From Citrus sinensis (Eukaryota; Streptophyta; Magnoliopsida; Sapindales; Rutaceae): a stretch of DNA of 64,000 nucleotides. Shown piece by piece: positions 38,760 to 51,100 of this stretch. The translations under genes and the position numbers were made by a program. The DNA lies in the NCBI RefSeq assembly GCF_022201045.2, contig NC_068562.1, forward strand, positions 558,001 through 622,000, written 5' to 3'. Positions within the stretch are counted from its first letter, which is position 1, and every line of letters begins with the position of its first letter. The notes beneath the pieces were generated by a model, which was not told where the DNA came from, did no database searches, and saw only the letters and a program-made list of their open reading frames with translations.

Positions 38760-39065
38760 ATTTCTCACACAACGAAGGTTAACTGTGGCTAGGGGGTTTG
38801 TCCGTTGCGCCATTCGCGCACAATAAAAGGTGATTGTAGCCTCAGGCATGCACGTGCCTGTTGGGCCATTTCTCACACAATGGAGGTTAATTGCATCCCT
38901 AGTTGCGCATGCATCCACCGGGGTGTGGCGATTTTTCGCACAAAAGAGGATAATTGCGCCCTCAGGCGTGCAGGCGTCCGCTGGGTGTGGCCATTTCTCG
39001 TACAATGGAGGTTAATTGTGGCCTCTGGCGCGTGCCCATTTCTTGCATGAAAGGAGGTTAGTTGT
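38760..39065. repeat. GC-rich minisatellite, about six units of 44-62 bp
   Basis: Each unit starts near ATTTCTCACACAATGGAGGT (variants ATTCGCGCACAATAAAAGGT, ATTTTTCGCACAAAAGAGGA, ATTTCTCGTACAATGGAGGT), goes through TAATTG(C/T), then a GC-rich variable part (for example GCATGCACGTGCC or GCGTGCAGGCGTCCG). Units begin near 38760, 38812, 38868, 38930, 38992 and 39036. Open frames across it on both strands are by-products of the repeat. It stands out sharply against AT-rich surroundings. Confidence 0.7.
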
Positions 39066-39222
39066 GCGGGAAGCGGCCTGGCCCTGTCTGCACGCTTCCT
39101 GGTCCCTCTATGCGCCCTGTTTTCCTGAAAAACACACGTTTTCGCGTGTCTTCAACTTCTTTACCTGTGCATCATTTTTTTCGTCCCATTCCAACCGATT
39201 TTCACATTTAATGATTAAATGA

Positions 39223-40560
39223 CTTGTATGCCCTTAATGATTAAATTAATTTGATAATTTTACTTTATAACAGCAAGATAATGTTATATGAAAAAAGTGA
39301 AATTTTGTTAACTAAATTGAAAAGTATGCACAATGGAATATTGATGGTTACAAAAAGTTATTATAGTTTTATGGTTACAATTGTAAAATAGAAACAAACG
39401 TGTGTAACAACGGAAAATGATTTAATGTTGACTTGAGTTTTTGCTAAACATTGAATCAATGGTTCGTAGGCAAGATAAATAAAAAAAAAATTAAAACAAT
39501 CCTGACTATTGATGATTTAGTGCTCAACAAAATCTGAGCTTAGCCCTAAATCCTAATCCGTGTAACAACTCTGAAAGCCAACATCCATAAACCTTCCATT
39601 AAAAGGTAGTCTGTTTTGTTGGATTTTTAAGAACGAGAGGAGCAGTTCGTGGCTGCTTTTCTTTCCACTGAGTGGATTTTATTCTTACCCCAAATATGCT
39701 ATTGCATTTTGTTAACAGCGTTTTGTTTATTACCTCATATTGTTTGTGTGCTGGAATTGCTACAAATCTTTTGAGTTATTCTGGGTTTAATTGCTCTGTT
39801 TTTCCTTCACCTTGGCTGGAAAAACACCAACCATGGAGGTAAGAGTGTAAGATTAAAACTAAACGCTTTATCGAAGTAGTTTCGCATATCAAATCATCCT
39901 AGAAGCTAAAAGGTTTGTACTAAAAAACTTCGTAAACGCCCCCCCTGAATAAAGGAAAAACGTGTTTAGGCAACAAGCTTGGCAGGATTTGTATTTCTGC
40001 TGACAATCTTATTGTTTGTTTATCAAGTTTTAGTGGAAGAAAAGTCAAAAACAATGAAATTATCTATTTTAGCACCTCTGCTTTGGGTATTTATAATCTA
40101 AAACCAACACTAGCATACACGTGCTTAGGACATAAACATGATTTGTGGCTTAAACATATAAACACACTGCTATTCTCCTCTTTCTTTCTTTATTTTGCAT
40201 CAGATTTCTTCTTCAGGATAAATATAGCTCCATCATTCCTTGATCACACTCAGAGGAGCAGATACACACATTCAATCACACATTAACCAATGATTTAATT
40301 TACATGTAGTTCATAAACCATGGGAAATTTGGAGGAATGTGGGATGGTAGGAAATTCAGGGAATCCTGACCAACTTTGCACTCGTGTCGAGAATATGCTA
40401 AAATTAACAAATAACAACCAGTAAAATTAACAAATAACAACCAGGCATAAAAGGCAAGCAAATGACACATCTTACAAGGTGGAGTAGAGGCTTTTATTTT
40501 GCCTTTTATACCACAACAAAATCATGAACAATCTAAAAACTAATTATTTTCCATTGTTTC
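39223..40560. other. Intergenic DNA
   Basis: AT-rich. A candidate ATG followed at once by a donor (ACCATGGAGGTAAGAG near 39832) looks like a possible first exon of a lost gene, but no continuation was found. Confidence 0.3.
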
Positions 40561-40563
40561 CAA

Positions 40564-40930
40564 CTAATTGTCCAATAGTTGCTTTGCATGAAGTTCAAGC
40601 AGGTTCCAATAAGCATCATAATAACATAGCTCTTTAGTAACAAATCGCAGAAAAATAGTGATAATCACGGTACCAATTGACAGAAATGACCATGTAATTT
40701 GTTGGCAGAATAGTTGCTTTGTGTGAAGTACTGATGGAATATCTTCCATGCAGATCACAATCATGGGGTAACACAGCAATCAATGGGAAAGACACAAAAG
40801 TAACAGAGTGAGAAGATCACGGTAGCATAGACAGATAAGAGCATGCATTCAGTTTGAAGGATTCTAATTACCTTGTGTAAAGTGCTGAAGGAGAAAAACT
40901 TCCATGAGAATCATAAACATGGGGTTAAAA
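40564..40930 (-). other. Possible gene relic with a duplicated exon-like segment
   Basis: On the minus strand, 40779-40564 reads PMIVICMEDIPSVLHTKQLF, then QQITWSFLSIGTVIITIFLR with one hydrophobic segment, to a stop. A related sequence at about 40925-40870 reads NPMFMILMEVFLLQHFTQ and ends at a donor-like GTAATT. The two look like diverged copies of one exon. I do not recognise the protein; it may be a relic. Confidence 0.25.
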
Positions 40931-40938
40931 ACAAGCCA

Positions 40939-40942
<4 letters not shown>

Positions 40943-40980
<38 letters not shown>
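40943..40980. repeat. AT dinucleotide microsatellite
   Basis: About 19 uninterrupted AT/TA repeats directly next to the palindromic element at 40981. Confidence 0.9.
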
Positions 40981-40984
<4 letters not shown>

Positions 40985-41137
40985 CTTCTCCAGTGCGGGC
41001 GCCCTTATTTTTTTCACGCGGACACACTTTAAAACTGCGGGGTTTAAGAGAGTTAATTTTTAACTCTTTTAAACCGCACGGTTTAAAAATGTGTCCGCAT
41101 TAAGAAAAATGCGGGCGTCCGCACCTGAGAATGATTA
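40981..41137. repeat. Near-perfect 157-bp palindrome (foldback MITE)
   Basis: The left arm from 40981 (AGTCCTTCTCCAGTGCGGGC, GCCCTTATTTTTTTCACGCG, GACACACTTTAAAACTGCGG) is matched by the complement of the right arm (AATCATTCTCAGGTGCGGAC, GCCCGCATTTTTCTTAATGC, GGACACATTTTTAAACCGTG). The arms meet near 41058 with almost no spacer (TTAATTTTTAA). It is GC-richer than its surroundings and is inserted in an AT repeat that continues on the right side (TATATATATGA). It has no coding capacity. Confidence 0.8.
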
Positions 41138-41241
41138 TATATATATGAATAATATATTTCTAGGGTAACAAAGATGAATAACCCAGATGTCTTCATAACA
41201 TTTGACAGATAAGAATATATACATATGCAATGTACATGAGG

Positions 41242-42655
41242 TCATGAAGCAGTCAAATGTTTCTTAACTGCATTCACAGACTGATGAGCAAAATACTTTT
41301 GCCTAAGTTGTACATATGGGTATCCAATAAATGACAGGAAGTCAGCTGGTTTTGAGAAGGAAACTATTTCATACCATACTTGGTTATTTTCATCCAGCTC
41401 TATAGAAAAACGTTCTTCGCCAGCCTGCTTCAAGCAGTTGTCATGTTAGTACTGGCCAGTGCTTCTCCATTTTAAAGAATTAAATTGTCTAGTGAATGCT
41501 AAAAGTCAAACATTTTTTTTCCTCGTTAGGTGAAGAAACATTATCCAAAATATCTAAATGTGAGCAAAAAATATAAACAAAACCACAAATTTTATGCATA
41601 GGCAACATTCAACAGCTGAGATAGACTTTTAAATAAAAATATATCAGCTGCCACATGGATTCTCAGCTAACCTCTTAAGCTATGGAGTTTTTTCTTGTTT
41701 TAATGTATGTAACTACATTGACATATTGATCTGAGTTTGCATTAAAAAAAAAAAAAGAAGTAACTTCATGTTTTGCTTAACTATGACAAGATGAGCCATC
41801 TTGTAGCATTTAGTTGTGTTTCTTTTGAAACAAAATATTGAAAAAACCAAATAAAATGACAGTACCAGGTTTAGATGACAGGAAGAGTATATTATATATT
41901 AAAGTATCTTTTTTCTAACTCTGGCTGCAATCTCATTTCTCACAACTATGAAAATTTTCATAGTAACCAAACAACTTCATTTTCTAGAGAGAATTTGCAA
42001 TTATGATATGCAAACAAGTACTCACCAGTAAGTGACCTTGAAGGGTTCCACTGCCAAAACCAAAAGAGGCTGCAGTCTTTTTCTTTCTTATGCTTTCATT
42101 AACATAAACAATCTGAAGAGGCAACGTAACCCAAGGCAGAAACTCCTTGACACACACACAAAACTTCACCCCATTTTGTATAGGAGTCTTGGGATCAACA
42201 AATGCCCAATTTAATCCAAAATGCCTGCAAATTGAACCAAAGTCATTCTAATATGATCCCACTCTTAATAATGATTAATAAATATGGAAAAACAAATCTA
42301 TAAACCTCCATGTCTTAAGAGCTGTCTTGCCCTTTTCATAGGTCTCAAGACCTGAACCAACCAAAACACGCGCATGATTGAGTAAGAAACCATCTTTTGA
42401 GAGCCCTTGATCTTCTTTGAGGCAAGCAACAGGCTTGGCAGTAGCTCCTTTGTACTTAGTATCATAGTTGAAGACACCTGACCTGAAGATTGTTAACAAT
42501 TATAAGCATATATAAACATGCATTCAACAGCCAGTTTAAAAGTCAAGATGAGAGAGAGGGGAAGAAGCAAATCAAATAAGTGTCAATTCTTATTACTTGT
42601 CAATACAAGCTTTCTGTTCTTGAGGAGTTGGTCGACCCCAGCTCAAGAAAACCAT
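41242..42655 (-). CDS. UPF0548 (DUF1990) protein
   Basis: Four exons on the minus strand, 42655-42597, 42482-42306, 42224-42026 and 41424-41242, give 205 residues, the same length I recall for Arabidopsis At2g17695. Landmarks in order: MVFLSWGRPTPQEQKACIDK, GVFNYDTKYKG, DGFLLNHARVLVGSGLETYE, HFGLNWAFVDP, LPWVTLPLQIVYV, FGFGSGTLQGHLLAGEERFS and WYEIVSFSKPADFLSFIGYP. The family is conserved from bacteria to plants, but its biochemical role is not established. A 5' UTR intron (42998-42658) appears to end two bases before the ATG, which supports this start. The gene is divergent from the RecQ helicase gene and the two probably share a promoter region. Confidence 0.92.
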
Positions 42656-42657
42656 CC

Positions 42658-42998
42658 CTGTCAACATCATCAATAATTTTCACTGTCTTAGTTAACATCG
42701 ATGGCAAAATTGAACACTATAGTTAATTTCCTTCCAAAAATGCTAATCAAAGATCAAGACAAGTCCAAAAATATTGCAAAATTCATGCTACGGGGAAAGT
42801 CTAATAAACTCAAACAAAACTGTCCAAGTAATTCGAACAGTGAAATAAAGCTTTAATGGCGAAAGCCGAAAGATGATCGAAAATAGAGCAACTAAATTCA
42901 ACAGAAGGCACCGGCGAGGAGAGGTCTAATGAAACTATATTAGCAAAAAGAAAACAGACAGATAAATAAAATATAAAATTTACACAAATATATATTAC
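42658..42998 (-). other. Predicted 5' UTR intron of the UPF0548 gene
   Basis: On the minus strand a donor TAATAG|GTAATATAT lies at 42999/42998 and an acceptor TTGACAG at 42658, two bases before the start codon. This puts the untranslated first exon between about 43000 and 43120. Confidence 0.55.
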
Positions 42999-43374
42999 CT
43001 ATTAAAACGAAGAAGAAGAAGTAGTTAACAAAATTCGAAATTGGCCGACGAATTTGATAAAGCTGTGATTTTTATGGAGTTTGAGAGAACTACTAGTGGA
43101 GACTTGAGTAAGCGAGTGAAAGCATAAAGTTTTGTCAGTAAGTTATCGCTAATCGTCCAGCGACGTCGTTTCTTATGGAAACCTATTTTTGTCATTTCAT
43201 AATTAATTAGTATTAGAATTTCAAATTTGTCATTCTTGTATCATTTGTCAAACTGATAATAAAGAGTTCATGTTTGTCGTTATTTTTCCAGTCTCTCTTT
43301 CTGTCTCGCAGGGACTAAAATCCGTGCCTGCTTGCAAATGAAGCAAAATTAGGATTTTATTCGTAAATCAAAAA
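42999..43374. promoter_or_regulatory. Divergent promoter region between UPF0548 and RECQL3-like genes
   Basis: Only about 375 bp separate the predicted UPF0548 leader exon from the helicase ATG, so the two promoters overlap or are bidirectional. There is no clear TATA box. Pyrimidine-rich stretches (CTCTCTTTCTGTCTC near 43294) lie on the helicase side, as is common for TATA-less housekeeping promoters. Confidence 0.45.
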
Positions 43375-46300
43375 ATGAAGAAATCACCGTTGGCGATGCA
43401 AAGTACAAGTCAGACTCAGAGGAATAAGCCACTACACGAAAAGGAAGCTCTCGTGAAGCTGTTGAGATGGCATTTTGGCCACGCTCAGTTTAGGGACAAA
43501 CAGCTTGACGCAATACAAGCTGTTTTATCAGGTCACAATCAAATTTATAAAATTAATTATTCATTTAGTTACAATTTGATCAAAGCTATTATTAATTTAT
43601 CGTCATTTTCTAGGAAGAGACTGCTTCTGTTTGATGCCAACTGGCGGTGGAAAGTCAATGTGTTATCAAATTCCTGCATTGGCCAAACCTGGAATTGTAC
43701 TTGTTGTTTCTCCTTTAATAGGTAAAGTAAGAGATTATTAAATCCTTATTATTTTAATTATTAGTTTCTGTTGTAATTAGCTTAATCATTTTGATTTCCT
43801 TTTTCTTTTTTGCAGCTTTGATGGTCAGTGCTCTTTAACTCTGCATTACCTTTTTTTTTCCCCTACCTTTTAAGGTAATTTCAAGGTTTGAGGTTTTGGA
43901 ATTCTTGTTCATGCTTGAAAAAATTAGGAAAATCAAGTAATTGGATTGCAGGAGAAAGGAATTGCTGCTGAATTTCTCTCTTCAACTCAAACGATGCAAG
44001 TGAAAACTAAGGTGAATGTACCCTTTTGGTAGTTAGTTTTCCTACATTGTTTCAGTTAGTAAATGAGGTATTTATATACCTGGGGTATTAATGTTTCATA
44101 GACATGTAACTTTTAGATATATGAAGACCTTGATTCTGGAAAACCATCCTTGAGGTTGCTATATGTAACACCAGAATTGACTGCAACACCTGGGTTTATG
44201 TCAAAGCTGAAGAAGATTCATTCAAGAGGGTTGTTGAACCTTGTGGCCATTGACGAGGTGTGACCTCACACAGTGTGTATTAGATAATATAGTCTTTTGA
44301 CTTATCTTCTGGTGTAATTTTCTGGTTTTGTGTAGTTTCTTGGGAAACTTTTTCTTTTTTGACTTTCTGCATAGAATTTCATTTATTTTATTATTTTTTT
44401 ATTTTCAGGCACATTGCATCTCATCATGGGGCCATGATTTTAGGTTTGTGATCAATTTTAGTAATGAGCAATAACTAAATTTCTGATCCCACTTCTGTGA
44501 CAGCATTTTTGTATTTGTTGAGAGACTGGTTTTTGCATTTGTGACAACTCTTGTCTAATTTTGTCTTTGTTTTAACTTCTATTGAACAGGCCAAGCTACC
44601 GTAAGCTCTCATCTTTGAGGAACTATCTTCCAGATGTTCCTATATTGGCATTGACAGCAACTGCTGCTCCTAAGTGAGTCTGGCTAACAGCCCTGTGCAA
44701 GAATAAAAACTGATTGCAGTTATGGTGGTTCTAGAGTCTGAAAAGTCTTTGTGATTCATGCCAATTCAATTCTATGTTCTCCTTTTTTCTGTCTTTGAAA
44801 GAGCCGGAATCCAGAATCGGATTTACATTTTACGTTTAAGTGCGGAGAGGTATTAAGATCTCTATTTCCCTTTTGGTTCTACAGAGTGCAGAAGGATGTT
44901 ATGGAGTCCTTGTGCTTGCAGAATCCTTTAGTCCTCAAATCTTCTTTCAATCGTCCTAATTTATTTTATGAAGGTTGGTTCTGGGAGATTTATTGCATCC
45001 AGTTTTACAAATTTTGTGACTGTTTTAGAAAACTTCATATATTGAAAGTTTGAATGCATTGCTTGGTTCTGTTGTTTAGCAATTAGTTTGTCATTCTGGA
45101 TACAACTGTGCAAGCATCTAACAAGGTATTTCTGAGATGCAGTTCGATACAAAGATCTTTTGGATGATGCCTATGCCGATTTGTGTAGTGTACTCAAGGC
45201 TAATGGAGATACCTGTGCAATTGTTTACTGTCTTGAACGTACAACTTGTGATGAGCTTTCTGCTTATCTTTCTGCAGGCGGCATTTCATGTGCTGGTAGC
45301 CAAATGTTCTTGAATTCTCTCTTTCCCTTATGAACTTCAATCTTTCCAAGTACCAAATTACGTACTTTGCTCACTCTGGTGCATTTGCAGCTTATCATGC
45401 AGGGTTGAATGATAAAGCAAGAAGCTCCGTTTTAGATGATTGGATTTCTTCTAGGAAACAAGTTGTTGTCGCTACAGTGGCTTTCGGGTATAGTTGAATC
45501 TGGAATTTCCCGCCTTTTGTCTGTTCATTTAAATTAACAACTGCAATAGCTTGCTCATACTCCTACCAAATTACCTACTTTTTAGTAACTGAAATAGCTT
45601 GCTCATGGCCTCATAGGTTTGTAGTGATGCCTTTAATTGGAATGTTTAACTCACCTTTTAAAGAAATATTATCTATCAGGAAACAGGTGTATTTGCTGAC
45701 AGTTTTTTGTATGTTTCTCCGAAATGGTTTATGTTGCACAGTTTAGTCTCATCTTATTTCAAGCACTTCATGTTTACCTGAGATTTGATGATTTTCTTTC
45801 TTTCTTCTGCTTTGAGCATCCTGGTTCGTGCACGGTTATTGAGCTAATGGTGTTCTTTCAGAATGGTACTCAACTAAATTCTCAATGATCTTTGATGAAT
45901 TCAACAAATTTTTCTACATGTCTTACTGTCTTTAAGCAGATGTCATATGTCCCTAAAGACTTGCGATCTGTATTTCTAGGGTATAGATAGAAAAGATGTC
46001 AGACTGGTTTGCCACTTTAATATCCCAAAGTCAATGGAAGCATTTTATCAAGAGTCAGGTAGAGCTGGTCGTGATCAGTTGCCCTCTAAAAGTCTACTGT
46101 ATTATGGAATGGATGATCGTAGAAGGATGGTTGGTCTGCTAGCCTTAACAATGCCCTCTCTACTACTTTTAGATTGTCTATTACTTGGTGGAATTTCATG
46201 CTAATTATCTAGAATTGCGACAGGAATTCATTCTAAGCAAGAATCAAAGCAAGAATTCTCAGTCCTTCAGCACACGAGAAAGGTCATCAAAAAAATCTAT

Positions 46301-48180
46301 ATCTGACTTCAGTCAGGTCATATCCAATCCTCTTTTCCTTTGTGTTACTTCTCTGTGTTGCTGATATTGTTTGAACACTGAACTCATACTACCTCCAGAT
46401 GGTTGATTACTGTGAAGGTTCTGGATGTCGCAGGAAAAAGATTCTCGAGAGTTTTGGGGAACAGGTATTGGGATGTGTGGCCAGTGTTACCCATAGGGTG
46501 GTTTCTTTCATTAGTCCTTTTATACTACTCATTTCATCTTCTAAAACAGATGCCTGTATCATTATGTAAAAACTCATGCGATGCCTGCAAACATCCAAAC
46601 CTATTAGCCAAGTACTTGGGGGAGCTAACTTCTGCTGTCCTGCAGAAAAATCACTTCTCTCAAATTTTCATAAGGTAATTTATCAATTTTTAAGCATGTA
46701 ACTTATTAGATTATTTCTTCAGTCTTGAAATTGATAATTGACCTCAAGTCAGAGTGATGCAGAATGTCTAGCATGAACTTGCTCCACATCCAACTTAACT
46801 ATACACCATGCTGGCATCGGGGCTATTCTTTAGATATTGTTTTTGCTTTAAATTTTTGAAGTGAAAAATTCGAGAAAGTTACTGTTCAAATTGCTTCAAC
46901 TGAATGTGTGCTTGCCAAACTAGCATGAAGACATTGTTGGTTTAACTGGTGGTTTCTTTTTTTAAGAATAAGTCATCATTGATATGCACACTAAATGCTG
47001 ATGGACACACTGGTCTTTGAACTAAATCATTTCTTTTAACATGTCAGCTCCCAAGATATGACCGATGGAGGACGGTATTCAGAATTTTGGAATCGTGATG
47101 ATGAAGCCAGTGGTTCTGAGGAAGATATATCTGATTGTGATGGTAATATCAATCTTGTAATAATTTCACGTTGCTAGTGGTGTATTAAAATATATGCAAT
47201 GGTCTTATTATCTAATGAGCTAAGTCTCTCAACTGCTAGATGGTATTGAGGTTGTCAAAAAGGTAGCCAATTCAAAGTTACCAACAAAAGCAGGTCTAAA
47301 TGAGAGGATTAACTTCTTGCAGCATGCAGAAGAAAGTTATTATCGGAATAAAATCTCTGATAAACAGGTCAATGTAATGTTAAACTAGTAGTTTGGTCTG
47401 CAAGCCATAATTCTTTTGTTGTTTTCACTATTTTTTTGTACTATAGTTTTCACTTTGAACCTGCTTAGCATGTATCTTCCCTCCAGAAAACCTTTTTGCT
47501 TATTTGACAACAGGTCAATAAACCAAGCAAGAATGCTGTATCTGATGTGCTGAGACAAGGAAGCAAGGAAAAACTACTAAATGCTTTGAGACAGGCTCAG
47601 CAGCGGCTTCGCAACTTAACGTAGCTTACCTATCTACTCTGCATAGTGAATTTTAAAGAATAAGCAGTCCGGTAGACTGTTCGCGTAAGTTACCATGAAG
47701 ATCCTCATTGTTTGAAGTACTTTTTGCAGCATTGAATTTGAAGCATCAGCCATTTTCCTTGAAAATGAATGCTACAACAAGTATGGGAAGAGTGGGAAAT
47801 CATTCTATTATTCACAAGTGGCCAGTACCATTAGGTGGTTATCAACTGCGAATTCCATTGAGTTGACGAATCGGCTCGGTATTGATACCGATTCCCCTTC
47901 AGTTAACTTTATCAGTAAGGAACAACCACTTGCAGCACCATCACCCTCGTTAGAGCAGCGACCAGCACAAATTACTGGCAAAGAACTTGATGGCAGCTGT
48001 GGATCAGAGAATTCTATTGGTGCTTTTCAAACAGAAAGTGAATCCCCTAGTACAAGTTTGCCTGTGATTCCATCCTTCTCAGAGTTTGTCAACCGCCAAA
48101 AAGTCAAAGACAACCAGCCGAATATATCATGTAAGGAATCGCCAAAGAAGAATTTTGACAAGAGAATGAGGTTACAGTAG
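43375..48180 (+). CDS. RECQL3: ATP-dependent RecQ DNA helicase, RECQL3-like
   Basis: Nineteen exons: 43375-43531, 43614-43721, 43816-43823, 43928-44011, 44117-44257, 44409-44443, 44590-44673, 44885-44973, 45143-45295, 45391-45487, 45862-45865, 45980-46129, 46224-46316, 46399-46464, 46550-46674, 47048-47142, 47240-47367, 47514-47620, 47730-48180. They total 2175 nt (724 residues), near the 713 I recall for Arabidopsis RECQL3. Motif 0 is [15 protein letters not shown]. Walker A is TGGGKS (62-67). Motif II is DEAH (165-168), motif V is AFGMGID (316-322), and motif VI is QESGRAGR (343-350). A Cys-rich zinc-binding segment follows ([11 protein letters not shown] ... CKNSCDAC). The C-terminus is long, Ser/Pro-rich and without an HRDC domain. 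RecQ helicases unwind 3'-5' in DNA repair and recombination. Exons 3 (8 nt) and 11 (4 nt) are unusually small. Confidence 0.93.
45862..45865 (+). other. 4-nt microexon of the RecQ helicase gene
   Basis: Exon 10 ends GCTTTCGG at 45487 and exon 12 begins GGTATAGAT at 45980. Direct joining shifts the frame. The sequence TGTTCTTTCAG|AATG|GTACTC at 45851-45871 provides four bases that give GGA ATG GGT, restoring the invariant AFGMGID motif. Confidence 0.75.
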
Positions 48181-51100
48181 TTCAAAATTTTGCGAGCTTT
48201 CTTCCCCCCCCCCCAAAAAAAAAAAAAAACCAATTTTCATGCTTTCTTTTTATCTAACAGATGTTTTATCGCCATGGGCTAATATTAAGCCACATGTTTG
48301 TGCATCTCCTTGTCCCTGTGCCTAATGTTTTGCCAGTCTCCTTTAGCCTAACGTTGAGTAAATCGTCTCCTTTGCTTGTCATAAATAGTTGAGCGGTTGT
48401 GGTGAGACTTTGACTTTCGACTTTCATATCAATGAAAAATGAACTAAATAAGTCAGTAAGAAAAAGGTAAGTACATCTGAAATTCGGAAATAAGACTTAA
48501 ACGAAGAAAAAGTGGAATGGTGTGTGACTTCGGCTTTTGTCTTTTAAGAAACAGCATATATGTGACTGCCGCCTGCCGTGCCCATCAGCCCATATCACAA
48601 AAGGAAGGAAAGCACTTGTGTAGGTAGAAAAATCTAACATATATGACCTTAAAAGAGAATCTACTCTTTTCAAAGCTGTAAGAAAAACCAATGGACTCTA
48701 CAATTCCAGAAACGCCAACGCCGCTCTCATAGATTACGAGATTAACAACCGCCATACAAAGGAAAAAGCAACCAAATTATTGCCCAGATTATGCATTGAA
48801 GAGATATATGGAATTGTTTGAAAAAAGTAACATGTTATTACCATTCTTACTTACATTCAACTTGAATTTGACCAAAGCCAAGCCTAGAAGGGGGTGGCCA
48901 GAATCGCCCGGTCGCCGCTGCCATCGACTAAATCATAATCACAAACGTGAATTGTGTAATGCTTGAACCATCTAATCTAGTAATGCGTCAAGTGTTTCAT
49001 CTCCTTCATTTGCAATACACACAAGGATTTGCATTTATTTCATTGATGCGATTCCTTGTGTGCATTAATTTTAGCCGAAAGTAACAGACGAAGAACAATC
49101 TTCCTTCCCCCATTAATTTTTGAACAGAGCTTATTCACCCAAATTATTCATCTCTTCCCATTCATTTTCCCCCTCATTCAATTTAAGAACCTTAACTTTA
49201 ATCTTAACATACCTACCCAATAGCCTAGCCTCTTTTTGAAAGCAGCTAGCTTCTGGTTTTCTCATCGAAACATGTATGATGTTTTTCACACACACACACA
49301 CACACATCATAATTTCTATTAACTAATTAAAAAACAGTTCCCAAATTAATGACACAACCAAATGCACATCAAACGCCGAGACATGAAATTGAGAATGTGA
49401 TAGAAAAGAATTTTCCCTTGAAATCAATACTGAGTTCATCAGTCGCGTTCAGTCCAATGGTAATCTTCTAAACTCATACCACATAACCGACACAAGAACC
49501 CTCCATCATAAACACAGCCAATAACATTACTTGTTGTTCTTACACATGCAAGAATACTTTTTGAGCAGAAGTTAAGTGGCTCGTTTTCTACTAGCATGTA
49601 GACACGTGTCATGAAAGTTGCCGTTCCCTTCCCTGAAACACGCAAGTATACATAATATCCAGAAAGAAACCCTTACGACGACAAGTACTTTCAGGTGCCA
49701 CTACCCACCAGGACCAGAGTCTGAGTTTTGATCAGTAATTTCTCTAATGGGCTCGAGACTCGAGACGATAAATAGTACTTTGGAGAAGAGAGATGTGCGA
49801 TGAAGTATGGAAATGCATGTTTGAGAGGGAAATGGAGGGATTTGGAAACTCATCGAGGCTAAGAGCACTTTGGGAAACTGAAACTTGTCTACTCATCTTT
49901 GTGTTTGTGAGTTCGGAAGAAGAAGGCATGTTTAAAGTTTATTGTTTAATGTTTTGGTTAAATACAGTCATTAATTAGCATTTAGAAATATTTAAAAAGC
50001 AAACAAATTTAATTATGTTACAATTGAACATACAAACTCTATATACATGCATGGAATATATTATGTAGCATCAATCAATTACTTGTGCTTCAGTTCTGTG
50101 GTAGCTCTAAAATACTAGGAGCCCTAGACGGAATTTTTTATGAGTTCTTGGCACTTTCGCCAGCCTTAACACTAAAAGAAATATAAAAGAACTCAAAATT
50201 CAATCAAATTTTAATTATATTTTAAAAATCAACAATCAATAAATACATACATAAGAAATTTAAAAAATAGTAGTAGTTAATAAGATATCTTTTTTACTTC
50301 CTTTAAAATTATTATTTTAAGAAACTATTCTTTTTTTACTTCAAAGTGAACCAATAAATTTAATAATTTTTTTTTATAGAGAAGAGCGCAAGAAATTTTA
50401 TAATATTAAAAAATTAAGATTTTTGTTAAATAGATAAATAATTTAATCATTTTTTTAGAAAAACTAATACTGAATTAACGGTTAGACAATAGTATTAATT
50501 ATAACTCTTTAACATTAAGATTATTAAACATAGAATTTGTATAAAACTTCTTAATTATAAGATAATTATCAATTAAAAAGAGCCAAAACAACAGGCTTTT
50601 GTCTTATAAGTAACTTAAAAATCTATTAATTTGAGTATATTAAGAAACTAAGAAAAAAGAGTCTTCTTAATTTATGAGGTCTAAGTGATTACAATGAGTT
50701 CTTTCTAATATATGAGGCCTTAGGCGACCGCCTATATTTAAAGTCACTCCTGCTTCAATTTATCTAATTGAATTATAGCTTCTTTACTTAATCTTGAGAC
50801 ATCATTTAATTACATAACTTAGAGATGCACCGCCAACCTACAACCTCCTCCATCAAACCTGCTGTTAGAACCAACTGCATTCGACTGAGGATTTTGGCGT
50901 ATGGCATATCGAAAGTACCACTTTCCTATTGGATTTCTATATGAAGCTTTCAATTAGTTGGGGACTTTTCGTAAACAACAGAAGAAGAGAAAGACTCTTT
51001 TCAGTTTCCACCGTTGAGGATTTTGGAATCACTCTTGAGTTGGCAGCAGCCCAATAGTGTAATTTGTTTTCTTATTAATCATTAATTAAGTTTGCACTTT

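Follow-up and report, generated by a model that had tools for sequence, protein, structure and literature searches.

A 4-nt coding exon as the best reading of a frame gap in a RECQ3-type helicase gene of Citrus sinensis

The window analysed here, 64,000 nucleotides of Citrus sinensis contig NC_068562.1 (positions 558,001 to 622,000), carries a RecQ-family helicase gene, which we modelled from window positions 39000–49500 by reading frame and GT–AG borders. The model gives a single open spliced frame with GT–AG introns, comprising 724 codons and a stop over 19 exons. The Pfam families DEAD (PF00270), Helicase_C (PF00271) and RecQ_Zn_bind (PF16124) all lie above cut-off in the predicted protein, which thus has both the helicase core and the zinc-binding domain of the RecQ family, and NCBIfam TIGR00614 (recQ_fam) scores 472 bits against a cut-off of 219.8, the sole family above cut-off among the 19 listed. 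The chains that rank first among the solved relatives of residues 1–539 bear the name ATP-dependent DNA helicase Q5, which we take to be the human RECQ5 protein. When the protein was searched against its own genome (299.7 Mb, 11 contigs), the best 7 of 41 matches fell at this locus. We label the gene RECQ3-type because both microexons reported for plant RECQ3 are present; orthology to plant RECQ3 is probable, given the family membership and the 8-nt phase-1 companion exon. The features are as follows, in window positions:

43375–48180, + strand: RecQ-family helicase gene, 19 exons as modelled, 724 aa (gene model, Pfam, NCBIfam, solved relatives)
43816–43823, + strand: exon 3, 8-nt microexon CTTTGATG, phase 1, giving A-L-M of SPLIALM in SPLIALMENQV (gene model; size and phase of Cluster 18)
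45391–45487, + strand: exon 10, ending ...GTG GCT TTC GG, phase 2 (sequence, gene model)
45488–45861, + strand: upstream intron, 374 nt, GT–AG (gene model); stop at residue 322 if retained
45862–45865, + strand: exon 11, 4-nt microexon AATG, completing Gly and giving Met of AFGMGID (frame, uniqueness, protein fit)
45866–45979, + strand: downstream intron, 114 nt, GT–AG (gene model); stop at residue 324 if retained
45980–46129, + strand: exon 12, starting GGT ATA GAT (G-I-D) (sequence, gene model)

The original prediction, made from the letters of the window, held that exon 10 ends in phase 2 with GG, that exon 12 starts with GGT and that the frame breaks and AFGMGID is lost unless a further segment lies between them. 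The two borders stand at 45487 and 45980. The gap between them (45488–45979) is real, but measures 492 bases rather than the 490 first given. If exons 10 and 12 are joined directly, the junction reads GGG GTA TAG, so that ...VAFGV runs into a stop at residue 321, and this solution was rejected. With AATG included, exons 10, 11 and 12 read AFGMGID, the stretch that we take to be RecQ motif V; the exon would supply the third base of the Gly codon and the whole Met codon, holding the frame open. AATG is bounded by AG and GT, as proposed (...gttctttcag before it, gtactc after it), and its inclusion gives the predicted mature sequence TTTCGGAATGGGTATAG. Across the three exons the spliced mRNA is predicted to read TTTCGGAATGGGTATAGATAG, with AATG sitting between TTTCGG and GGTATAGAT, and the predicted skip product has four Gs at its junction, TTTCGGGGTATAGATAG. 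Skipping the exon or retaining either flanking intron brings in a stop within a few codons.

An 8-mer, GGGTATAG, straddles both ends of the exon 10–12 gap, at 45486–45493 and 45979–45986 (+); the window holds these two copies on the + strand and one on the – strand, at 730. Such a repeat could mislead RT-PCR via template jumping, and a product with three Gs that continues into exon 12 (TTTCGGGTATAGATAG) would suggest that reverse transcriptase had jumped between the copies of GGGTATAG rather than that splicing had occurred.

To the claim that AATG is the only suitable piece in the gap, enumeration gives a divided answer. Single-exon solutions were counted if they kept the frame open, had a GT donor and left no fewer than 60 intron bases on either side; there are 22, three of them 4 nt long, so that 21 pieces besides AATG also open the frame. 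Three of the 22 end in Met, AATG being the one of 4 nt. What does hold is that AG-N-ATG-GT occurs a single time in the 492 bases. Of 20000 simulated gaps, drawn as first-order Markov sequences matching the gap in composition and length, 1.57% contain it in a valid position, and 0.095% do so with both acceptor and donor scoring no lower than observed. AATG is also the best in protein fit of 28 solutions, namely the skip and 27 in-frame single exons with GT or GC donors, compared with four peptides from other RecQ-like loci of the genome and one helicase Q5 peptide. AATG scores 541, followed by GL (AFGLGID) at 526, GF at 516 and a GC-donor solution, GD, at 501, with the skip at 193. The margin between the first three is small because they differ only in the residue at the place of Met. 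The GL and GF solutions are two other AGNNNNGT pieces in the gap, which replace GM, and AATG was chosen over them because it gives Met and has the better acceptor (6.3 vs 0.7 and –0.9, respectively). The flanking AG and GT prove nothing alone: in a control on the 14 introns of the gene that do not adjoin either microexon, 8 contain an AG..GT piece of at most 15 nt, whatever its coding content; the four that do adjoin one were left out. The case for AATG rests on frame and protein rather than on the flanking dinucleotides.

The other RecQ-like loci of the genome carry the motif undivided. AFGMG is unbroken in one frame in six of six, a count biased towards motif-bearing loci because the script looked for AFGMGID and close variants, at loci picked from protein matches rather than by a family scan. 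Three read AFGMGID and one each AFGMGII, AFGMGIN and AFGMGLD, and at none of the six is the motif split as in the present gene. Four of these loci served as the references for protein fit; the two omitted are L031, which diverges after AFGMGI, and L033, which has AFGMGIN. FGMG is likewise present in the four printed alignments to helicase Q5 chains. The spliced junction (33 bases, at most 3 mismatches) has no match in the citrus genome, so a genomic record of the mRNA is absent. A pattern scan of bacterial and archaeal contigs returned 57 fitting stretches, none of them confirmed, and a degenerate pattern run against the window had no match, a result irrelevant to the question.

A 4-nt exon in plant RECQ3 is not new, as it was published in 2022. 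Drawing on 990 RNA-seq sets from 10 species and predictions for 132 plants, which the database MEPDB serves (PMC12409088), Yu et al. (PMC8831610) describe two microexons of the RECQ3 gene (AT4G35740.1, for example) that are conserved among plants, Cluster 5, of size 4 and phase 2, and Cluster 18, of size 8 and phase 1. AATG resembles Cluster 5 in its length of 4 nt (45862–45865), in having two codon bases (GG) ahead of it, i.e. phase 2, in GT–AG borders on both flanking introns and, probably, in the kind of gene, and the 8-nt phase-1 companion elsewhere in the published gene is found here too. We found no difference between the two, judged from the main-text description rather than from cluster sequences; size and phase fit the AATG, GL and GF solutions alike. 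The phase conventions appear to agree, since Cluster 7 (size 5, phase 1) and its neighbour Cluster 28 (size 12, phase 0), as printed there, fit if the 5-nt exon comes first. Combining frame, protein fit and this published counterpart, we give a probability of about 0.96 to the reading that AATG is Cluster 5, a true coding microexon of 4 nt in a plant gene for a RECQ3-type helicase.

The same paper bears on whether orthologues in other plants keep the exon, a point raised by the original prediction; the conserved RECQ3 cluster reported there answers it. Cluster 5 is probably older than the flowering plants, because only Clusters 4, 12, 39 and 43 are named there as specific to them. Citrus is not named in the main text of either PMC8831610 or PMC12409088. 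A 4-nt rice microexon in LOC_Os02g54020 was checked by RT-PCR, in a passage that does not mention RECQ3 (PMC8831610). The 9-nt AP2 and invertase microexons named in that paper are, like AATG, tiny plant exons coding part of a protein motif, but skipping them keeps the frame, as their length is divisible by three. RECQ and AT4G35740 do not occur in the main text of the GRP20 paper (PMC10808074), and searches on RecQl3 introns and on 4-nt exons with RecQ helicase brought up nothing closer among titles and abstract openings.

The splice signals around AATG are not strong, contrary to what had been said of its polypyrimidine tract. Sites were scored with a matrix trained on the 16 other introns of this one gene, which flatters those 16 when they are scored by it in turn. 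On that scale the microexon acceptor reaches 6.3, with one of the 16 others (4.5–11.0) below it, and the donor 1.4, below all 16 (4.9–9.3); the exon 10 donor (1.9) and the exon 12 acceptor (4.1) are each under all of the training introns. The richest windows hold 14 T in 20 and 4 G in 10 in the upstream intron, and 11 T in 20 and 3 G in 10 in the downstream one, so neither has the motif of Yu et al., whose rule asks for T at more than 80% over 20 bases or G at more than 80% over 10 (PMC8831610). Within the last 60 bases of the introns, a branch-like YTNAY lies at –18 before AATG and another at –58 before exon 12.

How so small an exon might be recognised is suggested by analogy. Guo and Liu (2015, PMC4674806) consider the 1-nt exon of the Arabidopsis gene APC11 so small that exon definition is very unlikely, and they prefer a model in which introns are defined and removed step by step. 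AATG is likewise a tiny plant exon; it has 4 nt rather than 1, and is known from sequence, whereas the APC11 exon was tested by GFP fusion constructs. If their argument extends to 4 nt, AATG is likely to be spliced by two-step intron definition, in which the 114-nt downstream intron would often leave first. AATG would then head an exon of 154 nt, and removal of the upstream intron, 374 nt long, would follow. The order is carried over from plant microexons generally, for which Yu et al. describe upstream introns tending towards detention and, in many cases, more downstream-intron than upstream-intron splicing reads (PMC8831610); the short downstream intron and the longer upstream one suit it.

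We expect that AATG is spliced in constitutively in citrus. Its inclusion might instead be regulated, with a skip or a detained intron yielding stop-containing RNA that lowers RECQ3 output; this would add to the microexon reading rather than exclude it, and we hold it unlikely. The early stops after a skip or either single retention would suit such control, as would the weak site scores and the figure that, of 69 constitutively spliced microexons in Arabidopsis, 50 have a delayed intron on one side or both (PMC8831610). Against it, the same effect would be expected of most exons with a length not divisible by three, and the model of Yu et al. has co-transcriptional splicing for the majority of transcripts and, for the detained remainder, splicing before cytoplasmic release (PMC8831610). 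A little less likely still is a splicing checkpoint, in which RECQ3 protein would arise only after slow post-transcriptional splicing around AATG is complete; if that were true, helicase dose would track splicing capacity or stress.

Much less probable is the use of another small exon in the gap in place of AATG. The strongest such candidate by splice sites is the 7-nt GAAACAG at 45680–45686, whose combined score tops the 22 GT-donor solutions (5.4 + 7.1, vs 6.3 + 1.4 for AATG). It would give AFGKQGID, adding one residue and dropping Met, and its protein score falls to 461 against 541; moreover, the AFGMG of the six other RecQ-like loci speaks against it, as does the size of 4 of the published plant cluster, and it was rejected. 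Least credible is a decaying pseudogene or a misassembly whose gap holds no functional exon, for although exons 10 and 12 joined directly do meet a stop, the model runs through all 19 exons and their GT–AG introns as a single frame of 724 aa, three Pfam families and TIGR00614 lie above cut-off, and the best 7 of the 41 protein matches in the genome fall at this locus.

Judged by frame, by protein fit and by the motif at the other RecQ-like loci, the 4-nt phase-2 microexon giving Met, as originally proposed, ranks first among the solutions, and it agrees with the published Cluster 5 in size, phase and, probably, gene kind. It illustrates that a conserved helicase motif can depend on a 4-nt exon. 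The remark that gene finders miss such exons is also the thesis of Yu et al., who state that annotation overlooks them (PMC8831610); a gene model joining exon 10 directly to exon 12 would here end the protein at residue 321. For annotation, both RECQ3 microexons are to be placed in this genome.

The second of these, the 8-nt CTTTGATG, was absent from the original prediction and has the size and phase of the published Cluster 18. If 40 or more intron bases are required on either side, the 206-base gap around it admits five solutions that have a GT donor and stay open and in frame; apart from exon 3 itself, one of them also ends in ALM, a 59-nt exon at 43765–43823. The pattern derived from exon 3 occurs in 0.045% of 20000 Markov sequences. 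Exon 4 contains a possible inner acceptor (ttgcag) 24 nt in and in frame (43928–43951), the use of which would remove ENQVIGLQ. Elsewhere in the window, 40966–41151 holds two nested inverted-repeat pairs with arms of 47 and 49 nt, 81% and 82% complementary, which adjoin a TA repeat and resemble a small foldback element; a third inverted-repeat pair nearby is the TA repeat itself.
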